Under the pieces are notes generated by a model that saw only the letters and a program-made list of their open reading frames with translations, searched no databases and had not been told where the DNA came from. The position numbers were made by a program, and so were the translations under genes. A stretch of DNA of 47,244 nucleotides from Rhodospirillales bacterium (GTDB taxonomy: Bacteria > Pseudomonadota > Alphaproteobacteria > SMXQ01). The stretch spans positions 1-47,244 of the forward strand of contig JABIXC010000012.1 in assembly GCA_018666775.1 (NCBI GenBank), in the 5' to 3' direction. How positions within the stretch are numbered: position 1 is the first letter of the stretch; each line of letters starts with the position of its first letter. Shown in pieces: positions 8,137 to 46,245 of this stretch.

Positions 8137-9406
8137 TCACACAACATGGTATTTTGCGCCCCCCCATAAATGCGGGCGTAAATCGCGTGCGCCGGGTTGG
8201 GTCTTTTTGTCCCTTGTCCTTGCCATCTTTATCCCGTTTCAGGGCATGGCGGCAGAGACCCCGGAAACCGATCTTAAATCTGTTGAGCGTGCCCTCAAAC
8301 AAAGTGAGGCCCGAAGCAAATCGCTTGCCTTGGATGCAAAACGCATTACCAAAGAACGGGCAAAAATTCGAAAAACCCTGATCCGTGCCGCTAGGGATAC
8401 CCAGATCCGGCAACGTGCCATAGATCGGCTAAAGAACCATGTGGCCCGTCTCAAGGCTCAGGAACGCGCCAAAACACAATCCCTTGATGCGCGACGCAAA
8501 AGCCTGACGGAACTCATCGCTGCCCTTCAGCGCATCGCACGCCACCCCCCCGAAGCGGTCATGGCGTATTCCGCGACCCCCCAAGACACCCTCAGGAGTG
8601 CCCTGTTGCTGCGCTCGGCCATTCCCGAAGTAGAATCCCGCGCACGGGAACTGAAAGAAACCCTTTCTGCCCTTACCCGTTTGCGCACCCTTGCAGGGAA
8701 GCGCGAAGCCAATCTGGCATCAAAAGTGACGTCCCTGAAACACAAGCGCCGCGAGCTTTATCAGCTTCTGAAAAAAAAGCGTGCCCTTGAGAAAAAGGCC
8801 TTATCCAAACACACCCGCAGCAAAAATGACGTGCTTCAACTGGCGGCAAAAGCCAAAGGCCTGCGCGACCTTTTAGAGAAGCTCAAACAACACAAAAAAC
8901 GTCTGCGCACGGCCAGATTGCTTCCCCCACCATCCCGACACCAACGCCGGACAAAAAGAAATTTGCCCAAGCACGGCGAGACACGGCCCTTTGTGGTGGC
9001 GCGCGCGCGCGGAAATTTTGCACCACCCGTCCTTGGCACCATCACTGCGCGCTATGGTTCAAAGGCCAATTTTGGACCTAAAAACAAGGGGTTGAGAATT
9101 TCAACCACCCCCCAAGCGCAGGTGATTGCACCCTTTGATGGCTTGGTCGTGTTTGCAGGACCCTTTCGGGGGTATGGGCGGCTCTTGATCATCGATCACG
9201 GCGGGGGATATCATACTTTGCTCTCTGGCCTTGAGCGTATTGACACGGACGTCAATCAGCGTTTATTGACCGGAGAGCCCATAGGAACCATGGGCCAGCC
9301 CTCAAAAGGCCGGCCTGAGCTTTACTTGGAATTACGAAGAAATGGCCAGCCCATTAACCCCCTGCCATGGCTGGCGGCACCACCAACCGATAAGGTAAGC
9401 GGATGA
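8096..9406 (+). CDS. envC: EnvC-like murein hydrolase activator with degenerate M23 domain
   Basis: EnvC proteins sit in the periplasm and activate cell-separation amidases. The N-terminus has a hydrophobic segment (about residues 33-52) ending in A-A, read as a signal peptide. A long charged coiled coil follows (about 60-270), then a LytM/M23 domain from about residue 310. Metal-binding histidines expected in an active M23 peptidase are missing: the segments read KGLRI and LYLELRR where active enzymes have G-x-D and H-x-H. It is thus probably an activator rather than an enzyme. ATGs at 8096 and 8102 and GTGs at 8105 and 8111 are alternative starts, all inside the gpmI end. The stop overlaps the ctpA ATG. 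Confidence 0.88.
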   Translation: MGMVHVNGYRPLPDHTTWYFAPPHKCGRKSRAPGWVFLSLVLAIFIPFQGMAAETPETDLKSVERALKQSEARSKSLALDAKRITKERAKIRKTLIRAARDTQIRQRAIDRLKNHVARLKAQERAKTQSLDARRKSLTELIAALQRIARHPPEAVMAYSATPQDTLRSALLLRSAIPEVESRARELKETLSALTRLRTLAGKREANLASKVTSLKHKRRELYQLLKKKRALEKKALSKHTRSKNDVLQLAAKAKGLRDLLEKLKQHKKRLRTARLLPPPSRHQRRTKRNLPKHGETRPFVVARARGNFAPPVLGTITARYGSKANFGPKNKGLRISTTPQAQVIAPFDGLVVFAGPFRGYGRLLIIDHGGGYHTLLSGLERIDTDVNQRLLTGEPIGTMGQPSKGRPELYLELRRNGQPINPLPWLAAPPTDKVSG

Positions 9407-10689
9407 AACGAATAGCGTTCCTGGTGATTTTCCTGACCTCTATGGCAGCGATCGCCCCCTCTCAATCTCTGGCACAAGACAAGGGCCGGGAAACCTATCG
9501 CCAACTGGAACTCTTTGGCACTGTTTTTGATCGCATCCGCAATGATTATGTCGAAACCACCAAAGATCAGGATCTGATTGAGACGGCCATCAACGGCATG
9601 CTTTCTGCCCTTGATCCCCATTCCAGTTACCTCAGTGAAAAAAGCTTTAAAGATATGCAGGTCCGGACCCGGGGCGAATTTGGCGGGCTTGGCATTGAGG
9701 TCACCATGACCGATGGCCTTGTAAAGGTTATGTCCCCCATCGACGATACCCCGGCCTTTCGCGCAGGCATCAAGGCCGGTGATATGGTTACCCATCTTGA
9801 CGGCGCCCCCATCCGTGGCCTGACCCTTCAACAAGCGGTAGAGAAAATGCGGGGCAAGGTCGGTGAAGATATCAAGCTGACCATTCAACGCGGCACAAAG
9901 CAGCCCTTTGATGTCACCATCACCCGGGCGCGCATCAAAATAACGCCCATCAAACACCGCCTTGAAGCCAATAACATTGGCTACATTCGTATTACATCCT
10001 TCAATGATCAAACCACCATTGATCTGAAAAAGGCCTACAAAAAATTGCAAAAGAAAGCCAAGAAAGGAATCTCCGGACTTGTTCTTGATCTTCGGAATAA
10101 TCCCGGCGGGCTTTTGAAAGAAGCCATCAGCGTTTCCGATGCCTTCCTTGATCGCGGTGAAATTGTTTCCACCCGTGGCCGGAAAAAAACGGAAAGCACG
10201 CGCTCGAATGCCCAAAAAGGTGACATCACCAATGGGCTGCCCATCGTGGTTTTAGTAAATGGTGGATCAGCTTCTGCATCAGAAATCGTTGCCGGTGCAT
10301 TGCAAGATCACCGAAGGGCGATCATCTTGGGAACGCGTTCATTTGGCAAAGGTTCGGTCCAGACCATTATGCCCCTGCCGGGACACGGGGCCATCCGCCT
10401 GACCACACAGCGTTACTACACGCCCTCAGGGCGTTCCATCCAGGGGAAGGGCATCGAGCCGGACATCATGATTACCCAGTTGGAAGTCAAAGAAATTTCT
10501 GATCTGAAGCAGCGCCGTGAAAAAGACTTACGCGGGGCCCTTAGCGGCGACAAAGTTACGGCCAAAGACAAAAAGAAGGCCAAAGATGAAAAAGATGCAA
10601 AAGCAGATAAAAAAATTAAGGATTACCAGTTAACCCGTGCCATGGGCGTGCTTCGGGGCATTGCCCTCTACCGCCAACAGAAAAACTAG
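9403..10689 (+). CDS. ctpA: C-terminal processing serine protease, S41 family
   Basis: CtpA-type proteases act in the periplasm and trim proteins or control murein hydrolases. A signal peptide covers residues 1-25 (MKRIAFLVIFLTSMAAIAPSQSLA). A PDZ domain follows (about 90-170), then the S41 catalytic domain. The Ser/Lys dyad is S291 in GGSASASE and K316 in RSFGKGSVQ, the usual 25-residue spacing. A very Lys/Asp-rich linker lies at about residues 385-408. The ATG overlaps the envC stop (ATGA at 9403-9406), so the two envelope proteins are translationally coupled, a common alphaproteobacterial arrangement. Length 428 is normal. Confidence 0.96.
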   Translation: MKRIAFLVIFLTSMAAIAPSQSLAQDKGRETYRQLELFGTVFDRIRNDYVETTKDQDLIETAINGMLSALDPHSSYLSEKSFKDMQVRTRGEFGGLGIEVTMTDGLVKVMSPIDDTPAFRAGIKAGDMVTHLDGAPIRGLTLQQAVEKMRGKVGEDIKLTIQRGTKQPFDVTITRARIKITPIKHRLEANNIGYIRITSFNDQTTIDLKKAYKKLQKKAKKGISGLVLDLRNNPGGLLKEAISVSDAFLDRGEIVSTRGRKKTESTRSNAQKGDITNGLPIVVLVNGGSASASEIVAGALQDHRRAIILGTRSFGKGSVQTIMPLPGHGAIRLTTQRYYTPSGRSIQGKGIEPDIMITQLEVKEISDLKQRREKDLRGALSGDKVTAKDKKKAKDEKDAKADKKIKDYQLTRAMGVLRGIALYRQQKN

Positions 10690-38618: not shown

Positions 38619-39428
38619 ATGGCAGATACAGACGACAGCAAGATCACCGGGCTTTTGGGCCGCGACTTTAAACGCAGTTTGGCGGCGGGAAATTTAAATC
38701 TGTGCATGACGGTGCGCTATTCCCGCACCATCGAAATCGCCCAGGTGACCCGATTGGCCGGTTATGATGCGTTGTATTGTGATCTTGAACACAGCGCGCT
38801 GACCATTGATCAGGTGTCGCAAATTTCTATGGCCGCCGCCATGAGCGGGATTGTGCCGCTGGTCCGGGTCCCCTGTCATGGGCATCATTATATCAGCCGG
38901 GTTCTGGACGGCGGTGCCCATGGGGTGGTTGTGCCCCATGTGGATACCGTCGATGAAGCCAAAGCCTGCGTTGATGCGTGCCGCTATCCGCCCATGGGCG
39001 GGCGGTCATTGACCGGGCTTGGCCCATTGGCCGGGCAATCGGTGGGCACCACCGATGCGTATCGGTTGATCAATGAAAACACCGTTTTAATTGTCATGCT
39101 GGAATCGCCAGAAGCGATCAAAAATGCCGATGCCATCGCCGCCGTAGAAGGTGTTGATATGTTGCTGATTGGCACCAATGATCTGTGCATGGAAATGGGC
39201 ATTCCCGGCCAGCTGGATTCTGATCAGGTGCGTGATGCCTACCAAACCACGGCGGATGCCTGCAAAAAACACGGTAAGGCTTTGGGCATTGGCGGCATTA
39301 AAGAAGGCCCGATGCTGGATGCCATTTACGCCATGGGTGGGCGGTTTATCATGGGCCGGGTCGATGGCGTGCTGATGTCCATGGCCGCCACCACAGAGGT
39401 CAAGACCCTGCGCAAGTTAGGGTCTTAG
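38619..39428 (+). CDS. HpcH/HpaI family aldolase
   Basis: Metal-dependent class II aldolases of this family cleave or form C-C bonds using pyruvate-like substrates. All key residues line up with E. coli HpaI at a constant offset of 13: H58 (H45), R83 (R70), E162 (E149) and D188 (D175), within DLEHS, LVRVP, MLESPEA and GTNDL. The protein is thus expected to be active. Length 269 is normal. TAAGGA lies before the ATG. The physiological substrate is unknown; the neighbours suggest a product of ring degradation. The stop codon overlaps that of the converging cupin gene. Confidence 0.9.
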   Translation: MADTDDSKITGLLGRDFKRSLAAGNLNLCMTVRYSRTIEIAQVTRLAGYDALYCDLEHSALTIDQVSQISMAAAMSGIVPLVRVPCHGHHYISRVLDGGAHGVVVPHVDTVDEAKACVDACRYPPMGGRSLTGLGPLAGQSVGTTDAYRLINENTVLIVMLESPEAIKNADAIAAVEGVDMLLIGTNDLCMEMGIPGQLDSDQVRDAYQTTADACKKHGKALGIGGIKEGPMLDAIYAMGGRFIMGRVDGVLMSMAATTEVKTLRKLGS

Positions 39429-39898
39429 CCTTTAAGTTTTTCGTGCTGGTGTTTTTCAGGTGCTTCGCCGCCCATCAAGACAAACGCCAACCGGCACGTG
39501 TCATCGCTGCGGTTTTCCCAGCCATGCCAGGTGGCGCGCTGCACCAAAATGTCGCCGGCACTTAGGGCCACTTCTTCATCATCGTCTAGATGCATGACGC
39601 AATTGCCCTCTAACACGATGCAATAATCCAGCGTGTCGGTGCGGTGCATGAAGGCATCCTTTTTGGGGGCCAGTTCCAGAATGCGCAAGATGGTCCCTCT
39701 GGGCTGGGGGGCCAGCCCCATTTCCTTCATGGCCGGATCATCATCGCCGGACACTGCGGCTGGGGAATCTTCGGTCGCCCACATGACGCAGCCCGAGTGT
39801 CCCGATGGCATCACTTTGACATTGCTCATCAACCCATCGCGTTCAACGATCGCCTTGCCGTCCTTATCATGGCCGGTCACAACCCTGCGGATATCCAT
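39425..39898 (-). CDS. Single-domain cupin protein
   Basis: The 157-residue protein has a cupin core from about residue 65 to 145: RILELAPKK, then MHRTDTLDYCIVLEGNCVMHL (motif 1 with one His), and GDILVQRATWHGWEN (motif 2 His). Similar cupins appear beside aromatic and dicarboxylate degradation genes but usually without a proven reaction. Only two histidines plus acidic residues are candidates for metal binding. AGGAGA lies 7 bases before the ATG. It is the last gene of the Mo-hydroxylase operon, 20 bases after the binding-protein gene, and its stop overlaps the converging aldolase stop (TTAG at 39425-39428). Confidence 0.85.
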   Translation of the reverse strand: MDIRRVVTGHDKDGKAIVERDGLMSNVKVMPSGHSGCVMWATEDSPAAVSGDDDPAMKEMGLAPQPRGTILRILELAPKKDAFMHRTDTLDYCIVLEGNCVMHLDDDEEVALSAGDILVQRATWHGWENRSDDTCRLAFVLMGGEAPEKHQHEKLKG

Positions 39899-39918
39899 GT
39901 CTTATTCTCCTGAAACGA

Positions 39919-40842
39919 TTATATGACTTGATTGTAATAGCTAAGATCAATGTAGCGGGCGTGATCGGTCAGTTTTGGCCCATCGCCATAGCGCGAGCGC
40001 AGATCCAGAACCGTATCAACGCCGTCTGGCAAAATGGCGCCCTTAGGCGTCAGGCCAGAACGCGGGTTTAAAAGGTTTTTCAAAACGCCACCGGCAACGG
40101 CTGGTTTGATGGCGGGCATGTTGCGCAGCAAAATCTCAATGGCTTCATCCTGATTTTCTGGATCAAACACCCAGTCCAGCCCATCAAGATAGCCCCGGAT
40201 GTAGCCCTTTACCGTATCGGCGTTATCTGCGGCCCATGCGCGGCTGGCGGCAAAAGACCCGCCTTGATAACAATCAAACAAATCGGTGCTGGTTTGAAGC
40301 ACGTTAAAGCCCTGGGATTGGGCCATGGCTGTGAAGGGCTGGATGGTCAGGGTGCCCGCGGTCTTGCCTTCGCGCACCGATTCCCATCGCTGTGGGGTGG
40401 CCCCAACGGTGACCATTTCATAATCATCTGATTTAAGCCCGGCGCGCGCCAGCATTTCATACAGCACAAAGGCGAACCCCGTAGACAACGCATCCAATGC
40501 CAAAGATTTACCCTTTAGATCATCAAAGGTTTTTACATCCGGTGCGGTGACCAGCGCCAATTGCACCTGTGATGCCCCCATAAAGGCAAACAGGTCGGGC
40601 GTGCTTTCAGGTTTATAGACCCCTGCATCTTCTTGATAGGCGACCACATTATCAAAGGCGGTGCCCGCAATCTGGAAGGTGCCGTTGATCAGGTTTTCAG
40701 CCTGATAGGCAGAATTTGGCGTGGTCGACAAATTGACAGCAACGCCTGCTTTTTCGAAGAAGCCTTTTTCCTGGGCAGCGAAAATGGGCAGGCTGGGGGC
40801 GCCCGGGAAACAGATCAACTCAATGGCTTTTGTTTCGCTCAC
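39919..40842 (-). CDS. NMT1/THI5-like solute-binding-fold protein without signal peptide
   Basis: The sequence resembles SsuA/NrtA/THI5-type binding proteins: PSLPIFAAQEKGFFEKAGVAVNL, FDDLKGKSLALDALSTGFAFVLYEML and a C-terminal helical part. It begins directly with MSETKAIELICFPG and has no hydrophobic signal segment. The GTG at 40842 has AAGGA 9 bases upstream inside the end of the preceding gene, so this start is well supported and no upstream signal exists. It is probably cytoplasmic. This fold is known in cytoplasmic enzymes such as fungal THI5 and 4,5-dihydroxyphthalate decarboxylase. It is tightly coupled to the molybdenum hydroxylase gene (6-base gap). No ABC permease or ATPase gene is nearby. 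Confidence 0.8.
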   Translation of the reverse strand: MSETKAIELICFPGAPSLPIFAAQEKGFFEKAGVAVNLSTTPNSAYQAENLINGTFQIAGTAFDNVVAYQEDAGVYKPESTPDLFAFMGASQVQLALVTAPDVKTFDDLKGKSLALDALSTGFAFVLYEMLARAGLKSDDYEMVTVGATPQRWESVREGKTAGTLTIQPFTAMAQSQGFNVLQTSTDLFDCYQGGSFAASRAWAADNADTVKGYIRGYLDGLDWVFDPENQDEAIEILLRNMPAIKPAVAGGVLKNLLNPRSGLTPKGAILPDGVDTVLDLRSRYGDGPKLTDHARYIDLSYYNQVI

Positions 40843-40848
40843 GTGAAA

Positions 40849-43233
40849 TTATCCTTGTTTGTGAATTGCGCGCCAAACCGATTGGGGTGTTGCGGGCATT
40901 TCCAGATGGTCAATGTTGTAATCATGAAGTGCGTCAACAATGGCGTTGATGATCACCGCCGGTGCCGGGGTGGTCCCGCCTTCGCCGCCGGCCTTGATGC
41001 CAAGCGGGTTGGTGGGCGAGAGCACTTCGACAATTTCTGTGTTTAAAAAGGGCAGGTTGTTGGATTTCGGCATGCCGTAATCCATGAACGACCCCATCAA
41101 GGGCTGTCCCGTTTGTGGGTCGATGTAACATTGTTCCCACATGGCCTGACCAACGCCCTGGGCAATGCCGCCATGGGTTTGGCCATGAACGATCAAGGGA
41201 TTGATACACCGCCCAACATCATCCACCGCCGAATAGCGCGTGATAACGGTGCCGCCGGTATCTGGGTCCACCTCTATTTCACAAACCGCACAGCCATTGG
41301 GAAACACCTGTTCGTGCATTTCATTGTCCATGACAACGGCCAAGCCATCGGAAAGTTCATCGGGCAATTCCAAAAGGGATGCTTCTTTCGCCAGTTCCAG
41401 AAAGCCAAGGGTCTTGTTGCTATCGGGTGCGCTGAACAGCCCGTCGTTAAAATCGATCTGGTCGGCCGGGACTTTAAACACCAAACCAGCAATAGCCTTG
41501 CCTTTGGTGATCAGTGCCTTACCCGCCATTGACATGACTGTTCCCGCATGGCGCATGGACCGGCCCGAATGGGACCCGCCGCCCAAAGTAACAATATCGG
41601 TATCGCCGATAATGATCTGGATCAAAGACACCGGGACATGCAACAGATCAGAGACCACCTGGGCAAAACTGGTTTCATGGCCCTGCCCGCTGGGCTGGGT
41701 GCCAATCACCACATCGACGCTGCCTTCTGGCTTGATCGTGATCTCTGTGCGTTCTTTTGGGGCGCCGGTGGATGATTCAACATAATTGGCAATGCCTTGA
41801 CCCAATAATTTGCCCCGGGCCTTTGCTTCGTCGCGCCGCGCCTCAAAGCCATCCCAATCGGCGATTTTCATGGCCAAATCCATGTTCACTTCATAGGTGC
41901 CACTGTCATAAAGGGTGTTCATCGGGTTCCGATAAGGGAACACATCCGGGGTCAGGAGGTTCTTGCGCCGTAGTTCAATTTTATCAATGCCCAAATCTTT
42001 GGAAATCAGCTCGATCATGCGTTCAATGACAAAATTAACCTCTGGCCGCCCCGATGACCGATAGGCCTGAGTCGGCATGGTGTTGGTAAACACCCCAAGG
42101 GCGCGCATGGTGGCCACGGGAATGTTGTAGCCCGCCGTGATCAGGGCAGAGCCCTTGGCCAAGGGGGACAACGACACACAGCGCGCGCCGACATTAGAAA
42201 TGTTTGTCGCCCGCATGGCCAAAAAGGTGCCGTCCTTTTTCAGGGCTAATTCAACCCGGCTGACCAGATCGCGGCCCTGATAATCGCTGAGGAAGGCTTC
42301 GGACCGGGTTGCCAGATATTTCACCGGGCGCTTTAATTTTTCAGATGCCCACAGCACCAGACCAAATTCCACATAGATCCGGTTGCGGGTGCCAAAATTG
42401 CCGCCCACGTCATAAGACAACACCCGGATTTTTTCCCGATCAACCCCCAACACCGCGGCCATTTCGCCTTTTTGGCGAACCGCACCACCGCTGCCCGCGT
42501 ACAAGGTATAGCGCCCGGTTTCACAATTATAATCCCCAAGGGCCGCGCGGGGCTCCATGGGCACGCCGGTGACGCGGCCAATGTTAAATTCGCGCTTAAA
42601 AACATGATCGGCGGCATCGAAAGCCAGATCGGTCGCGGCCACATCGCCAAAGGTTGTGTCGACCAGAATATTATCCGTCGCTTCATCCCAAACGCTGGGG
42701 GCACCCGCCTCAATGGCATCTTCGGAATGAAGGACCCATGGCAGTTCTTCGTAATCCACCTCTACCAATTCGGCAGCATCCATGGCCTGGGCCTTGGTTT
42801 CTGCCACCACCATAACCACGGCTTCGCCCACATGGCGGGCACGATCTGTGACCAACAACATATTGGGGCCATCAAAGACCTTCGCCCCACCGGGGCCGGT
42901 CAGCTTCATATCAAACTTTGTCGACGGCACCGGGGAATGGGGAATTGGAACCAACCCATCGGCCAGACAATCCGCACCGGTGTAAACCCCAAGCACCCCG
43001 GGCATGGCCAGTGCTGCATCTTTGTTCACACCCAAAATTTTAGCATGGGGATGGGGGCTGCGCACCATAATGGCATGAACCTGGCCTTCCAGGCTGAAAT
43101 CGTCAGAAAATGCGCCCGCACCGGTCAATAACCGGTGGTCTTCTTTGCGCCGGATCGGCTTGCCGATGGCCCTAAACCCGTCATCTCCAGGGGTTTCAAG
43201 CTCTGTTTCAAATGTGTCAAAATCACCAGACAT
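40849..43233 (-). CDS. Xanthine dehydrogenase family molybdenum-binding subunit
   Basis: Large catalytic subunit of a molybdenum hydroxylase (xanthine dehydrogenase/CoxL superfamily, 794 residues). The N-terminal domain starts IGKPIRRKEDHRLLTGAG. The Mo-cofactor segments include GGNFGTRNR, QPSGQGHETSFAQ and the catalytic glutamate E751 in KAGGEGGTTPA. The substrate-specificity loop reads AYRSSGRPE (about residues 390-398), neither the A-Y-x-C-S-F-R of form I CO dehydrogenase nor the usual A-Y-R-G-A-G-R of form II. The usual FAD and 2Fe-2S subunit genes are absent on both sides. It heads an operon with the binding-protein and cupin genes, divergent from ubiD-like. Confidence 0.92.
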   Translation of the reverse strand: MSGDFDTFETELETPGDDGFRAIGKPIRRKEDHRLLTGAGAFSDDFSLEGQVHAIMVRSPHPHAKILGVNKDAALAMPGVLGVYTGADCLADGLVPIPHSPVPSTKFDMKLTGPGGAKVFDGPNMLLVTDRARHVGEAVVMVVAETKAQAMDAAELVEVDYEELPWVLHSEDAIEAGAPSVWDEATDNILVDTTFGDVAATDLAFDAADHVFKREFNIGRVTGVPMEPRAALGDYNCETGRYTLYAGSGGAVRQKGEMAAVLGVDREKIRVLSYDVGGNFGTRNRIYVEFGLVLWASEKLKRPVKYLATRSEAFLSDYQGRDLVSRVELALKKDGTFLAMRATNISNVGARCVSLSPLAKGSALITAGYNIPVATMRALGVFTNTMPTQAYRSSGRPEVNFVIERMIELISKDLGIDKIELRRKNLLTPDVFPYRNPMNTLYDSGTYEVNMDLAMKIADWDGFEARRDEAKARGKLLGQGIANYVESSTGAPKERTEITIKPEGSVDVVIGTQPSGQGHETSFAQVVSDLLHVPVSLIQIIIGDTDIVTLGGGSHSGRSMRHAGTVMSMAGKALITKGKAIAGLVFKVPADQIDFNDGLFSAPDSNKTLGFLELAKEASLLELPDELSDGLAVVMDNEMHEQVFPNGCAVCEIEVDPDTGGTVITRYSAVDDVGRCINPLIVHGQTHGGIAQGVGQAMWEQCYIDPQTGQPLMGSFMDYGMPKSNNLPFLNTEIVEVLSPTNPLGIKAGGEGGTTPAPAVIINAIVDALHDYNIDHLEMPATPQSVWRAIHKQG

Positions 43234-43295
43234 GGGTATGGATCGCTCCCTATGGACTTCGCCGTCTTAAATACTTAATTTCAGGCACCGAATGA

Positions 43296-43313
43296 TGCGC
43301 AATATGTAGCGCA
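43296..43313. promoter_or_regulatory. Dyad between the divergent Mo-hydroxylase and UbiD genes
   Basis: TGCGC at 43296-43300 and GCGCA at 43309-43313 form an inverted repeat with an eight-base AT-rich centre (AATATGTA). It lies in the 147-base divergent gap, 62 bases from one gene and 67 from the other. The position suits an operator for a regulator controlling both units, but no regulator gene is visible in the window and short dyads arise by chance. Confidence 0.3.
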
Positions 43314-43380
43314 ATCGGGGGCAACTGGAAACCGGCCTGATTACAATTTTTGGGCAAAACAAAAATATATTGGAGAGACC

Positions 43381-45027
43381 ATGGCAAATGCCTTCCCCAA
43401 ACGGGGCTATCGCGACCTGCAAGAACACCTTAAGGCGCTCGATGAAGCCGGACTTTTGGTTACCATTGATGAACCCGTCAACAAGGACACAGAGCTGCAC
43501 CCGCTGGTGCGCTGGCAATATCGTGGCGGCATCCCCGATGCTGAGCGTAAGGCCTTTCTGTTTACCAATGTCACCGACGCGCGGGGGCGCAAATTTGACA
43601 TCCCCGTGGTGGTTGGCGCATTGGCGGGCAATCAGGAAATTTATCGCATTGGCATGAATGTCCCCCTCGAAGAGATTGGCCCAACCTGGGAACGCGCCAT
43701 GAATGCGCCCATTCCCCCCAACGTGGTTGAAGAAGCGCCTTGTCAGGAAACCGTCATCACCGGGGCAGACCTGATTGGCGAAAACAAGGGCCTCGATGCC
43801 CTGCCCGTACCCATTTCAACGCCCGGCTATGACGCCACGGCGTATTTTACGGCCACCAATGTTGTCACCCGCGACCCCGATACCGGGGTCCAGAACATGG
43901 GCACCTATCGCGCCGGCCTGAAGGCATCCAACCGTCTGGCCGTGCGCATGGCATCGCGCACCGGTGGGGCGGGCGGTTATTTGCATTGGGTCAAATATCA
44001 AAAACGCGGCGACAAAACCATGCCTTGCGCCATTGTTGTCGGTGCACCCCCGGCGGTGGCCTATCTTGGCCCGCAAAAATTAAGCCCCGATCGCGATGAA
44101 GCAGAGGTCGCCGGTGCCTTGATGGGCGCACCCATCAACATGGTAAAATGCAAAACCAATGACCTGATGGTGCCGGCCGAAGCCGAAATGGTGATTGAGG
44201 GATTGGTGGACACCGAATATCTGGAACCCGAAGCACCCTTTGGGGAATCCCACGGCCATATCGCGCTGGAAGATTACAACATGATCTTCGAAGTGACCGC
44301 CATCACCATGAAGAAAAAGCCGGTGCTGGTATCAATCATTTCCCAAGTCACCCCCAGCGAATCCAGTGTCATCAAACGGGTGGCCTATGAGCCCATGTTC
44401 CTGGCCCATTTGCGCGACAATCTTGGCATTCGCGGTATTAAACGCGTGTCTCTCCATGAACCGTTGACCAACATCCGCAAGGTGATTTTCATCGTCGTGG
44501 AAAAAGGCATCCCCGCAACAGAAGTCTGGCGGGCACTTTATGGGGCGGCCAGTTTGCGCGCTGATTGCGGAAAATATGTCATTGCGGTTAACGATGACAT
44601 TGACCCAGAAAACGGCGATTCCATCTTCTGGGCGCTGGCGTATCGCGCGAATGTCTTGTCAGACGTGGAAATCCTGCACCACCGGCCACGGGGACATGGC
44701 CCAAAAAGCGGCAATGTCACCCAGGATGGCAGCCTTTTGATCGATGCCACCTCTAAGGGTGATATGCCACCGCTGGCACTACCAAAACGCGAATTCATGG
44801 AAAATGCCAAGGTTCTCTGGGAAAAACTGGGCCTGCCCCCGATCAAGGAACAATCCCCCTGGCACGGATACGACATGGGGGACTGGTTCGAAGCATGGGA
44901 TGAAAATGCCAGAAGAGCGGTCGAGGGGGATTATGCAGAAAATGGCCGAAGAACGGCGCAACGCCGGGTCAAAGACGTCATTCCCGAAACCCCTGTTAGA
45001 ACAGTAGAAGGTGATCCGGAATTGTGA
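43381..45027 (+). CDS. UbiD family decarboxylase
   Basis: UbiD enzymes reversibly decarboxylate aromatic or unsaturated acids with prenylated FMN. The catalytic triad is present with family spacing: R177 in NMGTYRAGLK, E284 and E289 in EPEAPFGESHGH, matching R173, E277 and E282 of Fdc1. N172 is the expected metal/cofactor ligand. An insertion of about seven residues precedes the later His (H202). The C-terminal part is longer than in E. coli UbiD (548 against about 497). GGAGAG lies just before the ATG. Since ubiquinone genes are absent nearby and catabolic genes surround it, a degradative role is inferred. UbiX is not in the window. Confidence 0.92.
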   Translation: MANAFPKRGYRDLQEHLKALDEAGLLVTIDEPVNKDTELHPLVRWQYRGGIPDAERKAFLFTNVTDARGRKFDIPVVVGALAGNQEIYRIGMNVPLEEIGPTWERAMNAPIPPNVVEEAPCQETVITGADLIGENKGLDALPVPISTPGYDATAYFTATNVVTRDPDTGVQNMGTYRAGLKASNRLAVRMASRTGGAGGYLHWVKYQKRGDKTMPCAIVVGAPPAVAYLGPQKLSPDRDEAEVAGALMGAPINMVKCKTNDLMVPAEAEMVIEGLVDTEYLEPEAPFGESHGHIALEDYNMIFEVTAITMKKKPVLVSIISQVTPSESSVIKRVAYEPMFLAHLRDNLGIRGIKRVSLHEPLTNIRKVIFIVVEKGIPATEVWRALYGAASLRADCGKYVIAVNDDIDPENGDSIFWALAYRANVLSDVEILHHRPRGHGPKSGNVTQDGSLLIDATSKGDMPPLALPKREFMENAKVLWEKLGLPPIKEQSPWHGYDMGDWFEAWDENARRAVEGDYAENGRRTAQRRVKDVIPETPVRTVEGDPEL

Positions 45028-45141: not shown

Positions 45142-46245
45142 ATGAAAAAACTTTCTATTTTAACCCGGATCGGGGTTGGCATGGCTGCAGGCGCAGCAAT
45201 GCTGGCTGCGACCATGACAGCCACACCTGCACGTGCAGATGCGGTTGCAGATTTCTATAAGGGCCGTGATGTCACCTTCATCGTCGGCTTTTCCGTCGGT
45301 GGATCTTATGGCGCCTATTCCCGTATGCTGGCCCGTCACATGGCCCAGTATATTCCCGGCAAGCCCAACATCCTGACCAAACATCGCCAAGGCGGCGGTG
45401 GCTCACGGGCTGCCAACTATCTCTATAATGTGGCTGCCAAAGACGGCACCATGCTCGGCTTTTTGTCCGATTCTTTAGCCCTTGGGCAGTTGATGTTCCC
45501 AAAAAAGGCCAAATATGACGCCCGCAACATGCGTTATATCGGTCGCCTGACCCCGGTTAACCCGGTCTTGGTGATCAATAAAAATCACAAGGTTAAGACC
45601 ATTGCCGATGCCAAAAAGCATCAAGTGGTCGTCTCTTGTTCTGGACGGTCTTCCCAGAGCTACTTGTATCCCAAGGCCACTTTGGAATTGCTGGGCTATA
45701 ACTTCAAGATGGTTTGCGGCTATGCGGGTTCTGCCCCACAGAGTCTGGCACAATCGCGTGGCGATATTGATGCCCAGTCCAGCGCCTGGATCAGCTGGAA
45801 AATTCGCAAATTTGACCAAATCCAAAACGGCAACCTGATTCCTATCCTCCAGTTTGGTCTGGTACGTGAATTGGATCTGCCCAATCTTCCCCTGCCACAA
45901 GACCTGACAAAAAGCGCCGAAAACAAGAAGATTTTCAAATTCTTGTTCTCTGGTGGTGCCATTGGCCGCACATTGATTGCAGCCCCTGGCGTACCTGCGG
46001 ACCGCGTCAAAGCCTTGCGGGTGGCCTTCAAAAAGACCATGAAGGACCCCAAATTCTTGGCCGAAGCCAAGAAACGCAATGCCCATATCCAGCCTGGTAC
46101 CGGCGAAGAAATGGATAAGATCACGGCAGTGGTTCTGTCCGCTGATAAAGCGCTGGTCAAAATGACCCGCAATGTCGTGAAGGGCTATAAGAAGAACTGT
46201 AAGAAAAATTGTAAGAAAAAGAAAAAGAAGAAAAAGAAAAAATAG
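45142..46245 (+). CDS. Tripartite tricarboxylate transporter (TctC/Bug) binding protein with poly-Lys tail
   Basis: TctC/Bug proteins are periplasmic binding proteins for carboxylates and related compounds. Residues 1-32 are a signal peptide ending A-R-A. The mature part follows family pattern: FYKGRDVTFIVGFSVGG, RMLARHMAQYIPGKPNI and GGGGSRAANYLYNVAAKDG. In the first ligand loop the usual G-Y-D reads S-Y-G, so the common aspartate is missing. The fold ends near residue 345. The last 21 residues contain two K-x-C-K-like blocks (KKNC KKNC) and then ten lysines. Length is 367 against about 325. GGGAG lies 8 bases before the ATG. No TctA or TctB gene is visible. Confidence 0.9.
   Translation: MKKLSILTRIGVGMAAGAAMLAATMTATPARADAVADFYKGRDVTFIVGFSVGGSYGAYSRMLARHMAQYIPGKPNILTKHRQGGGGSRAANYLYNVAAKDGTMLGFLSDSLALGQLMFPKKAKYDARNMRYIGRLTPVNPVLVINKNHKVKTIADAKKHQVVVSCSGRSSQSYLYPKATLELLGYNFKMVCGYAGSAPQSLAQSRGDIDAQSSAWISWKIRKFDQIQNGNLIPILQFGLVRELDLPNLPLPQDLTKSAENKKIFKFLFSGGAIGRTLIAAPGVPADRVKALRVAFKKTMKDPKFLAEAKKRNAHIQPGTGEEMDKITAVVLSADKALVKMTRNVVKGYKKNCKKNCKKKKKKKKKK

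Follow-up and report, generated by a model that had tools for sequence, protein, structure and literature searches.

We analyzed a 47,244-nucleotide stretch of DNA from a Rhodospirillales bacterium (contig JABIXC010000012.1, positions 1 to 47,244; hereafter the window, contig C12 in our numbering), where three adjacent genes on the minus strand encode the molybdopterin-binding large subunit (LSU) of a molybdenum (Mo) hydroxylase (40849-43233, 794 aa), an NMT1/THI5-like protein (NMT) with a leaderless periplasmic-binding fold (39919-40842, 307 aa, GTG start), and a cupin (39425-39898, 157 aa). The gaps are 6 bases between LSU and NMT and 20 bases between NMT and cupin, with a Shine-Dalgarno-like AAGGA 5' of the NMT start, within the final LSU codons, and AGGAGA 5' of the cupin start; these coordinates and sites bear out the three-gene operon proposed in a preliminary description, and the spacing suggests that the genes form one transcript. 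In the Pfam scan, all domains of the three products were above cut-off: an a/b hammerhead and two Mo cofactor-binding domains in LSU (PF01315, PF02738, and PF20256), PF09084 (2.4e-18) and PF13379 in NMT, and PF07883 in the cupin (39 bits against a cut-off of 27.2). Genome-wide searches with PF01799 and PF00941 placed neither a 2Fe-2S subunit gene (S) nor an FAD subunit gene (M) on this contig, so the local absence of both that had been described earlier also held.

The best solved match of the window LSU was the CoxL chain 8uem (E = 1.1e-128). Large subunits of the xanthine oxidase family are defined by GGxFG, GQGH, and an active-site Glu; the window LSU has the Mo-site motifs GGNFG, GQGH, and GEGGT and, at residue 390, the motif AYRSSGR in the position aligned to the active-site loop of CoxL. 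Every one of the 63 NMT-linked LSUs aligned had this loop motif (one with TN instead of the preceding TQ), and GQGH occurred in 59, the remaining 4 having GQGQ. For CoxL itself, one report gives (A/S)YRCS(F/L)R as the form I motif and AYRGAGR as the form II motif (PMC13240472). A form I carbon monoxide dehydrogenase was excluded because its motif differs from AYRSSGR, and the form II motif was likewise absent; by the motif test, therefore, the LSU is not a carbon monoxide dehydrogenase. Judged from sequence, the NMT-linked LSUs form a distinct clade with an active-site motif of their own, described as new here; in a literature search of incomplete coverage, AYRSSGR did not appear among the matches listed. 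The LSU tree, made by a quick method and with long branches, was built from 63 paired rows, from which LSUs that were short or cut had been removed, together with 3 second LSUs and 8 LSUs of the window's own genome. In it, a paralogue on contig C16 of the own genome, with the loop YRSSGR, was sister to the NMT-linked clade. The cluster of this paralogue (L034:3402-4106, 8308-10662) also encodes, at a distance of about 4 kb from the LSU, an SBP_bac_11 (ModA-like) protein that lacks a leader.

We examined how firmly the three genes are associated in relatives. Named species genomes were scanned with an NMT alignment, and the best 80 of 112 confirmed relatives were kept; the scan was seeded with NMT, and NMT-less relatives of the LSU lie outside this sample. 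LSU directly adjoined NMT in 74 of the 80 loci (67 in the order LSU-NMT and 7 in the order NMT-LSU), a pairing that spans alpha-, beta-, and gammaproteobacteria, and four (L076, L077, L082, and L116) of the six loci without an adjoining LSU (the other two being L073 and L121) had less than 1 kb upstream. Among ten genomes of the same family, five (G004, G007, G008, G009, and G010) carried a close NMT with 67-73% identity, and all five kept the order LSU-NMT-cupin. This conserved order, together with the adjacency in 74 of 80 loci, indicates that the operon is not a product of chance. The cupin recurred in only 8 of the 74 linked loci and is the third operon gene in the five same-family genomes; its family profile matched the solved structure 3es1 (1.8e-36).

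The distribution of S and M was more variable. Cox-type S and M genes were both present at 21 of the 74 linked loci, S only at 8, and neither at 45; when at least 9 kb was visible on both sides (30 loci), the corresponding numbers were 11, 4, and 15. Two of these 15 orphan loci (L101 and L109) carry an Ior-type 2Fe-2S gene and were kept in the counts. Complete clusters followed the layout UbiD / LSU-NMT-CoxG-S-M in Rhizobium, Devosia, and Thalassospira, or NMT-LSU-S-M-UbiD in, for example, Sphingomonas and Oxalobacteraceae, and the annotated locus of Neorhizobium petrolearium (L199) has UbiX, a second LSU, UbiD, and LSU-NMT-CoxG-S-M. Named isolates with a full cluster were Rhizobium sp. BK313, Devosia enhydra, and Neorhizobium petrolearium; the cluster of the last also contains modABC molybdate uptake genes (L199:15883-18504). 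In addition, metagenome-assembled genomes (MAGs) of Beijerinckiaceae/Rhizobiales (L056 and L058-L062) have LSU-NMT-UbiD with a cox-type 2Fe-2S gene and no FAD subunit found, and a TctC gene directly follows S where visible. On the LSU tree, the presence of S and M changed state at least 4 times. This count used 41 rows: S/M was present in 21, and the 20 lacking M comprised the window, 5 loci that have S only, and 14 of the 15 orphan loci with wide flanks. NMT adjoins LSU regardless of the variable S/M, and the cupin is confined to 8 of 74 loci; by gene content, NMT goes with LSU, S and M are variably present, and the cupin is an addition specific to the lineage. The repeated state changes could also be read as chance loss of S and M that left a degenerate or silent operon with a non-functional LSU. 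We consider this the least probable of the readings weighed here, since all three genes are intact, their products share 66-78% identity within the family, and the Mo-site motifs are kept.

The preliminary description had placed NMT and the cupin where the usual subunits should be. This replacement was rejected on co-occurrence: NMT stands beside S and M together in 21 of the 74 loci, the cupin is present in 8, and the Pfam scan found no electron-carrying cofactor domain in either protein. A related reading holds that the orphan LSU functions in the absence of S and M and that NMT and the cupin are a new electron- or substrate-handling pair. The adjacency of the three genes in the window and five same-family genomes is consistent with it, as are the 15 of 30 well-flanked loci without cox-type S or M, but the same co-occurrence counts oppose it, as does the Pfam scan, in which neither NMT nor the cupin had a flavin, FeS, or haem domain. 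The LSU sequences point the same way. The 21 S/M-linked rows have 232 invariant LSU columns, 223 of which are unchanged in the window LSU; when samples of equal size were compared, orphans kept 0.954 of the columns invariant in S/M-linked rows and the reverse value was 0.956, with held-out rows of the same group keeping 0.975 and 0.976. This coarse test, which does not isolate the subunit interface, gave no sign that orphan LSUs have been freed from the constraints acting on their S/M-linked relatives. Unchanged constraint argues against LSUs working solo, and we regard that reading as very unlikely.

The gene inventory of the window's own genome, an assembly of 2.41 Mb in 19 contigs with 98% completeness, agrees best with the other option that had been raised earlier, that the usual subunits are encoded elsewhere. 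The genome has 8 Cox/XDH-type LSUs and 4 Ior-type LSUs, with 2 PF00941 (M) and 5 PF01799 (S) genes; S and M lie within 6 kb of 2 Cox/XDH-type LSUs, and neither lies within that distance of the other 6, including the window LSU. One of the two full sets, an LSU-CoxG-S-M operon on contig C17, is the only one whose S and M resemble those of NMT operons in type; in all 21 S/M-bearing NMT loci, the best-matching references for S and M were S_cox and M_cox. An operon of this type was found in 8 of 9 relatives checked (L189-L196; L197 differs, and G005 was outside the check) and in all six family genomes with the NMT operon (the own genome, G004, and G007-G010). In G004, 9 LSUs were counted with 2 M genes, and 7 LSUs were without S/M, 2 of them near contig starts; such per-genome LSU counts include fragments in fragmented MAGs. 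Moreover, two LSUs adjoin one S/M set in four loci (L106, L117, L118, and L199). The few M genes, the C17-type set, and the doubled LSUs favor S and M being supplied in trans, probably and most likely by the C17 operon, and in a wider sense they favor sharing of such subunits among LSUs, although they are no proof. Dedicated S and M genes paired with this LSU in all relatives had been named as the observation that would contradict a new arrangement; such genes do stand beside LSU in many relatives (21 of 74), but not in all. As side observations, twelve xanthine oxidase-family large subunits are many for a 2.4 Mb genome, and the four Ior-type LSUs (frames of 736-784 aa) have 2Fe-2S partners (C16:49000-59000 and C17:284000-287000).

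Several points weigh against this reading. The pairing of the LSU with the C17 S and M rests on the scarcity of candidates, and the C17 set has an LSU of its own that is only 40% identical to the window LSU. A concatenated S+M tree neither shows nor rejects separate NMT-type and C17-type clades; a single NMT-type S+M clade was not rejected (approximately unbiased test, p-AU 0.54), and derivation of the C17 set from NMT operons was not shown. S and M were present somewhere in 24 of 24 genomes checked, which fits sharing but tests it only weakly. With the assembly at about 98% completeness, a further S/M set might be missed. Finally, NMT might catalyze a reaction or assist maturation rather than handle a substrate.

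NMT itself resembles proteins of solute uptake. An AlphaFold2 model built on 62 sequences reached a predicted local distance difference test score (pLDDT) of 95.4 (a 6-sequence model with a pLDDT of 41.8 was not used), and its closest folds were NrtA (Z 31.8), 3qsl, CmpA, and related binding proteins at Z of about 30, with further matches to 9uai (CmpC/NrtC C-terminal domain; Z 30.2) and the pyrroloquinoline quinone (PQQ)-binding PqqT (Z 27.4). The window NMT has no signal peptide, starting just 6 bases past the LSU stop, and a hydrophobic leader was scored in 0 of 78 scorable relatives by a crude detector, which did report one for 5 of 8 control homologues. The direct neighbors of NMT in the window include neither a transporter permease nor an ATPase. 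Two homologues that have no LSU, one encoded on Achromobacter plasmid pA81 and the other in Rhizobium sp. AB2/73 (L198 and L201), carry evident signal peptides; they have 40-43% identity and share 20 of the 26 polar invariants of the NMT clade. The binding pocket is probably largely kept between the two groups, and the polar invariants that differ (T149, W153, and T171 among them) suggest that the NMT clade binds another ligand. By sequence, NMT is a binding-fold protein that remains in the cell, a former periplasmic solute-binding protein whose signal peptide was lost.

The same fold is used by enzymes, and NMT might act as a lyase, decarboxylase, or hydrolase on the LSU product. It matches Thi5 (Z 27.7), MqnD (22.2), DszB (19.1), and 4,5-dihydroxyphthalate decarboxylase (16.9), and a cytosolic location within a catabolic cluster would suit such a role. 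However, these enzymes rank behind the transport proteins led by NrtA. Catalysis depends on H66 in Thi5 and C27 in DszB, and no His or Cys was invariant across 61 NMT clade rows, which were not mapped residue by residue onto Thi5 or DszB; the best-kept His (residue 161) reached 85%, with the window differing there, and the best Cys (residue 11) reached 39%. The lack of an invariant His or Cys argues against catalysis of the Thi5 or DszB kind, and we consider an enzymatic NMT unlikely.

A second pair in the own genome bears on the role of NMT. On contig C10, an orphan LSU (L029:7917-11162) adjoins a different, convergent, leaderless NMT that is 26% identical to the window NMT. Orthologues of this C10 NMT in six same-family genomes (76-80% identity) adjoin the orthologous LSU and have no leader in the upstream frame; the pair thus occurred in 7 of 7 family genomes, the own included (matches of at least 76%), and the LSUs of the six relatives (C48, C10, C112, C179, C175, and C517) were all without S/M. 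Four more distant C10 NMT matches (47-63%) had no LSU in their short stretches, and fragment L214 was left out. This recurrence is compatible with S and M acting in trans while NMT serves as a maturation chaperone that binds the Mo cofactor, its precursor, or apo-LSU rather than as a substrate handler. NMT tracks LSU, not S/M, and is kept where S and M are absent (45 of 74), and PqqT indicates that the fold is able to hold a large cofactor. Conversely, the other LSUs of the own genome, both S/M-paired ones included, have no adjoining NMT, and the polar invariants of NMT are common to periplasmic solute binders. We hold a chaperone role to be rather unlikely.

The operon lies in a catabolic cluster. 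A UbiD-family decarboxylase is encoded divergently on the plus strand (43381-45027, 548 aa; PF01977 at 8e-51, PF20695, and PF20696), and the 147-base intergenic region (43234-43380) is likely a control region common to this gene and the LSU operon. Convergent with the cupin is an HpcH/HpaI aldolase on the plus strand (38619-39428; PF03328). Further along, a TctC-like solute-binding protein (45142-46245, plus strand) matched PF03401 at 4.2e-05, below its cut-off; TctC-like homologues adjoin the operon in relatives. The C-terminal tail of the window protein is lysine-rich and includes a run of ten lysines, which could be a frameshift or assembly artefact in an A-rich run. UbiD genes with more than 50% identity were found in 44 of the 74 linked loci and, where 9 kb was visible on both sides, in 26 of 30; in the five same-family stretches, where contig ends limit the view, UbiD was seen in 3 and HpcH in 4 (L037, L038, L040, and L041). 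Among 59 neighbor stretches of at least 9 kb, including the window and L199, alpha/beta hydrolases occurred in 22, a flavoprotein, taken for UbiX, in 11, and TauD-type dioxygenases in 10; many other neighbor clusters were antisense artefacts of mechanical open reading frame calling. The best solved relatives of the UbiD protein were 6h6x/6h6v (5e-37), which we take to be the furandicarboxylate decarboxylase HmfF. As no coenzyme A ligase was noticed within the clusters, we claim no particular substrate.

We give about even odds to the reading in which the LSU is the head of a heterotrimeric Mo hydroxylase that receives S and M in trans, with a cytosolic NMT handling substrate or product and the cupin as an accessory. 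In this scheme, the LSU, whose Mo-cofactor site is evident from its sequence, would hydroxylate an organic acid, probably (hetero)aromatic, alongside the UbiD decarboxylase and the HpcH aldolase. Electrons would exit through a 2Fe-2S and an FAD subunit from elsewhere, most likely from the C17 operon. NMT, cytosolic as judged from its sequence, may bind the substrate or product and hold it or deliver it to the LSU, and the cupin may be an accessory catabolic enzyme of this lineage. In a broader form of the idea, several LSUs would be interchangeable catalytic heads that draw on a common CoxS-CoxM(-CoxG) electron module, and some of them would have their own leaderless binding-fold protein to present the substrate in the cytosol; we judge this form less likely than not.

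Many proteobacteria carry CoxL-like genes without an assigned substrate. When a MAG has only part of a cox operon, incomplete recovery is the usual explanation, at least for form I (PMC13240472), and here LSUs lacking S/M are found repeatedly, both in a genome of 19 contigs that is 98% complete and in related loci whose flanks are wide. If the S/M module is shared, counts of complete coxMSL operons overlook much of the catalytic repertoire; if the modular system is true, about seven cox-like heads would depend on one module in the own genome. The named isolates with a full cluster make both the sharing and the NMT-partner ideas testable. In our literature search, incomplete in coverage, no paper noticed among the matches listed dealt with an NMT1-like partner of a Mo-hydroxylase large subunit or with a shared S/M.

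Compared with known systems, the window LSU has the domain order and Mo-site motifs of form I and II CoxL (CoxMSL), and its relatives have the S, M, and CoxG partners, but it differs in AYRSSGR, in the NMT partner, and in having no local S/M. NMT shares its fold and Pfam family with the NitT/TauT solute-binding proteins (SsuA, NrtA, and ThiY), and signal-peptide homologues, 41-44% identical, lie in catabolic clusters; unlike those binding proteins, NMT has no signal peptide and is paired with an enzyme subunit. Thi5, MqnD, DszB, and 4,5-dihydroxyphthalate decarboxylase are cytosolic proteins of the same fold, from which NMT differs in having no invariant, potentially catalytic His or Cys. The C-terminal regulatory domain of the transporter ATPases CmpC/NrtC likewise places this fold on the cytosolic side, whereas NMT is a separate protein encoded next to a hydroxylase. 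With a cytosolic binding protein as the constant partner of an enzyme, the binding fold would be put to a new use. In sphingomonad ring-hydroxylating oxygenases, many catalytic heads use one ferredoxin/reductase, and this sharing is established; the one-module logic is the same, but the enzyme class differs, and for the window LSU we only infer sharing. The enzyme family is known; the partnership of the LSU with a leaderless NMT would be a new variation on it, as would the trans-acting module.

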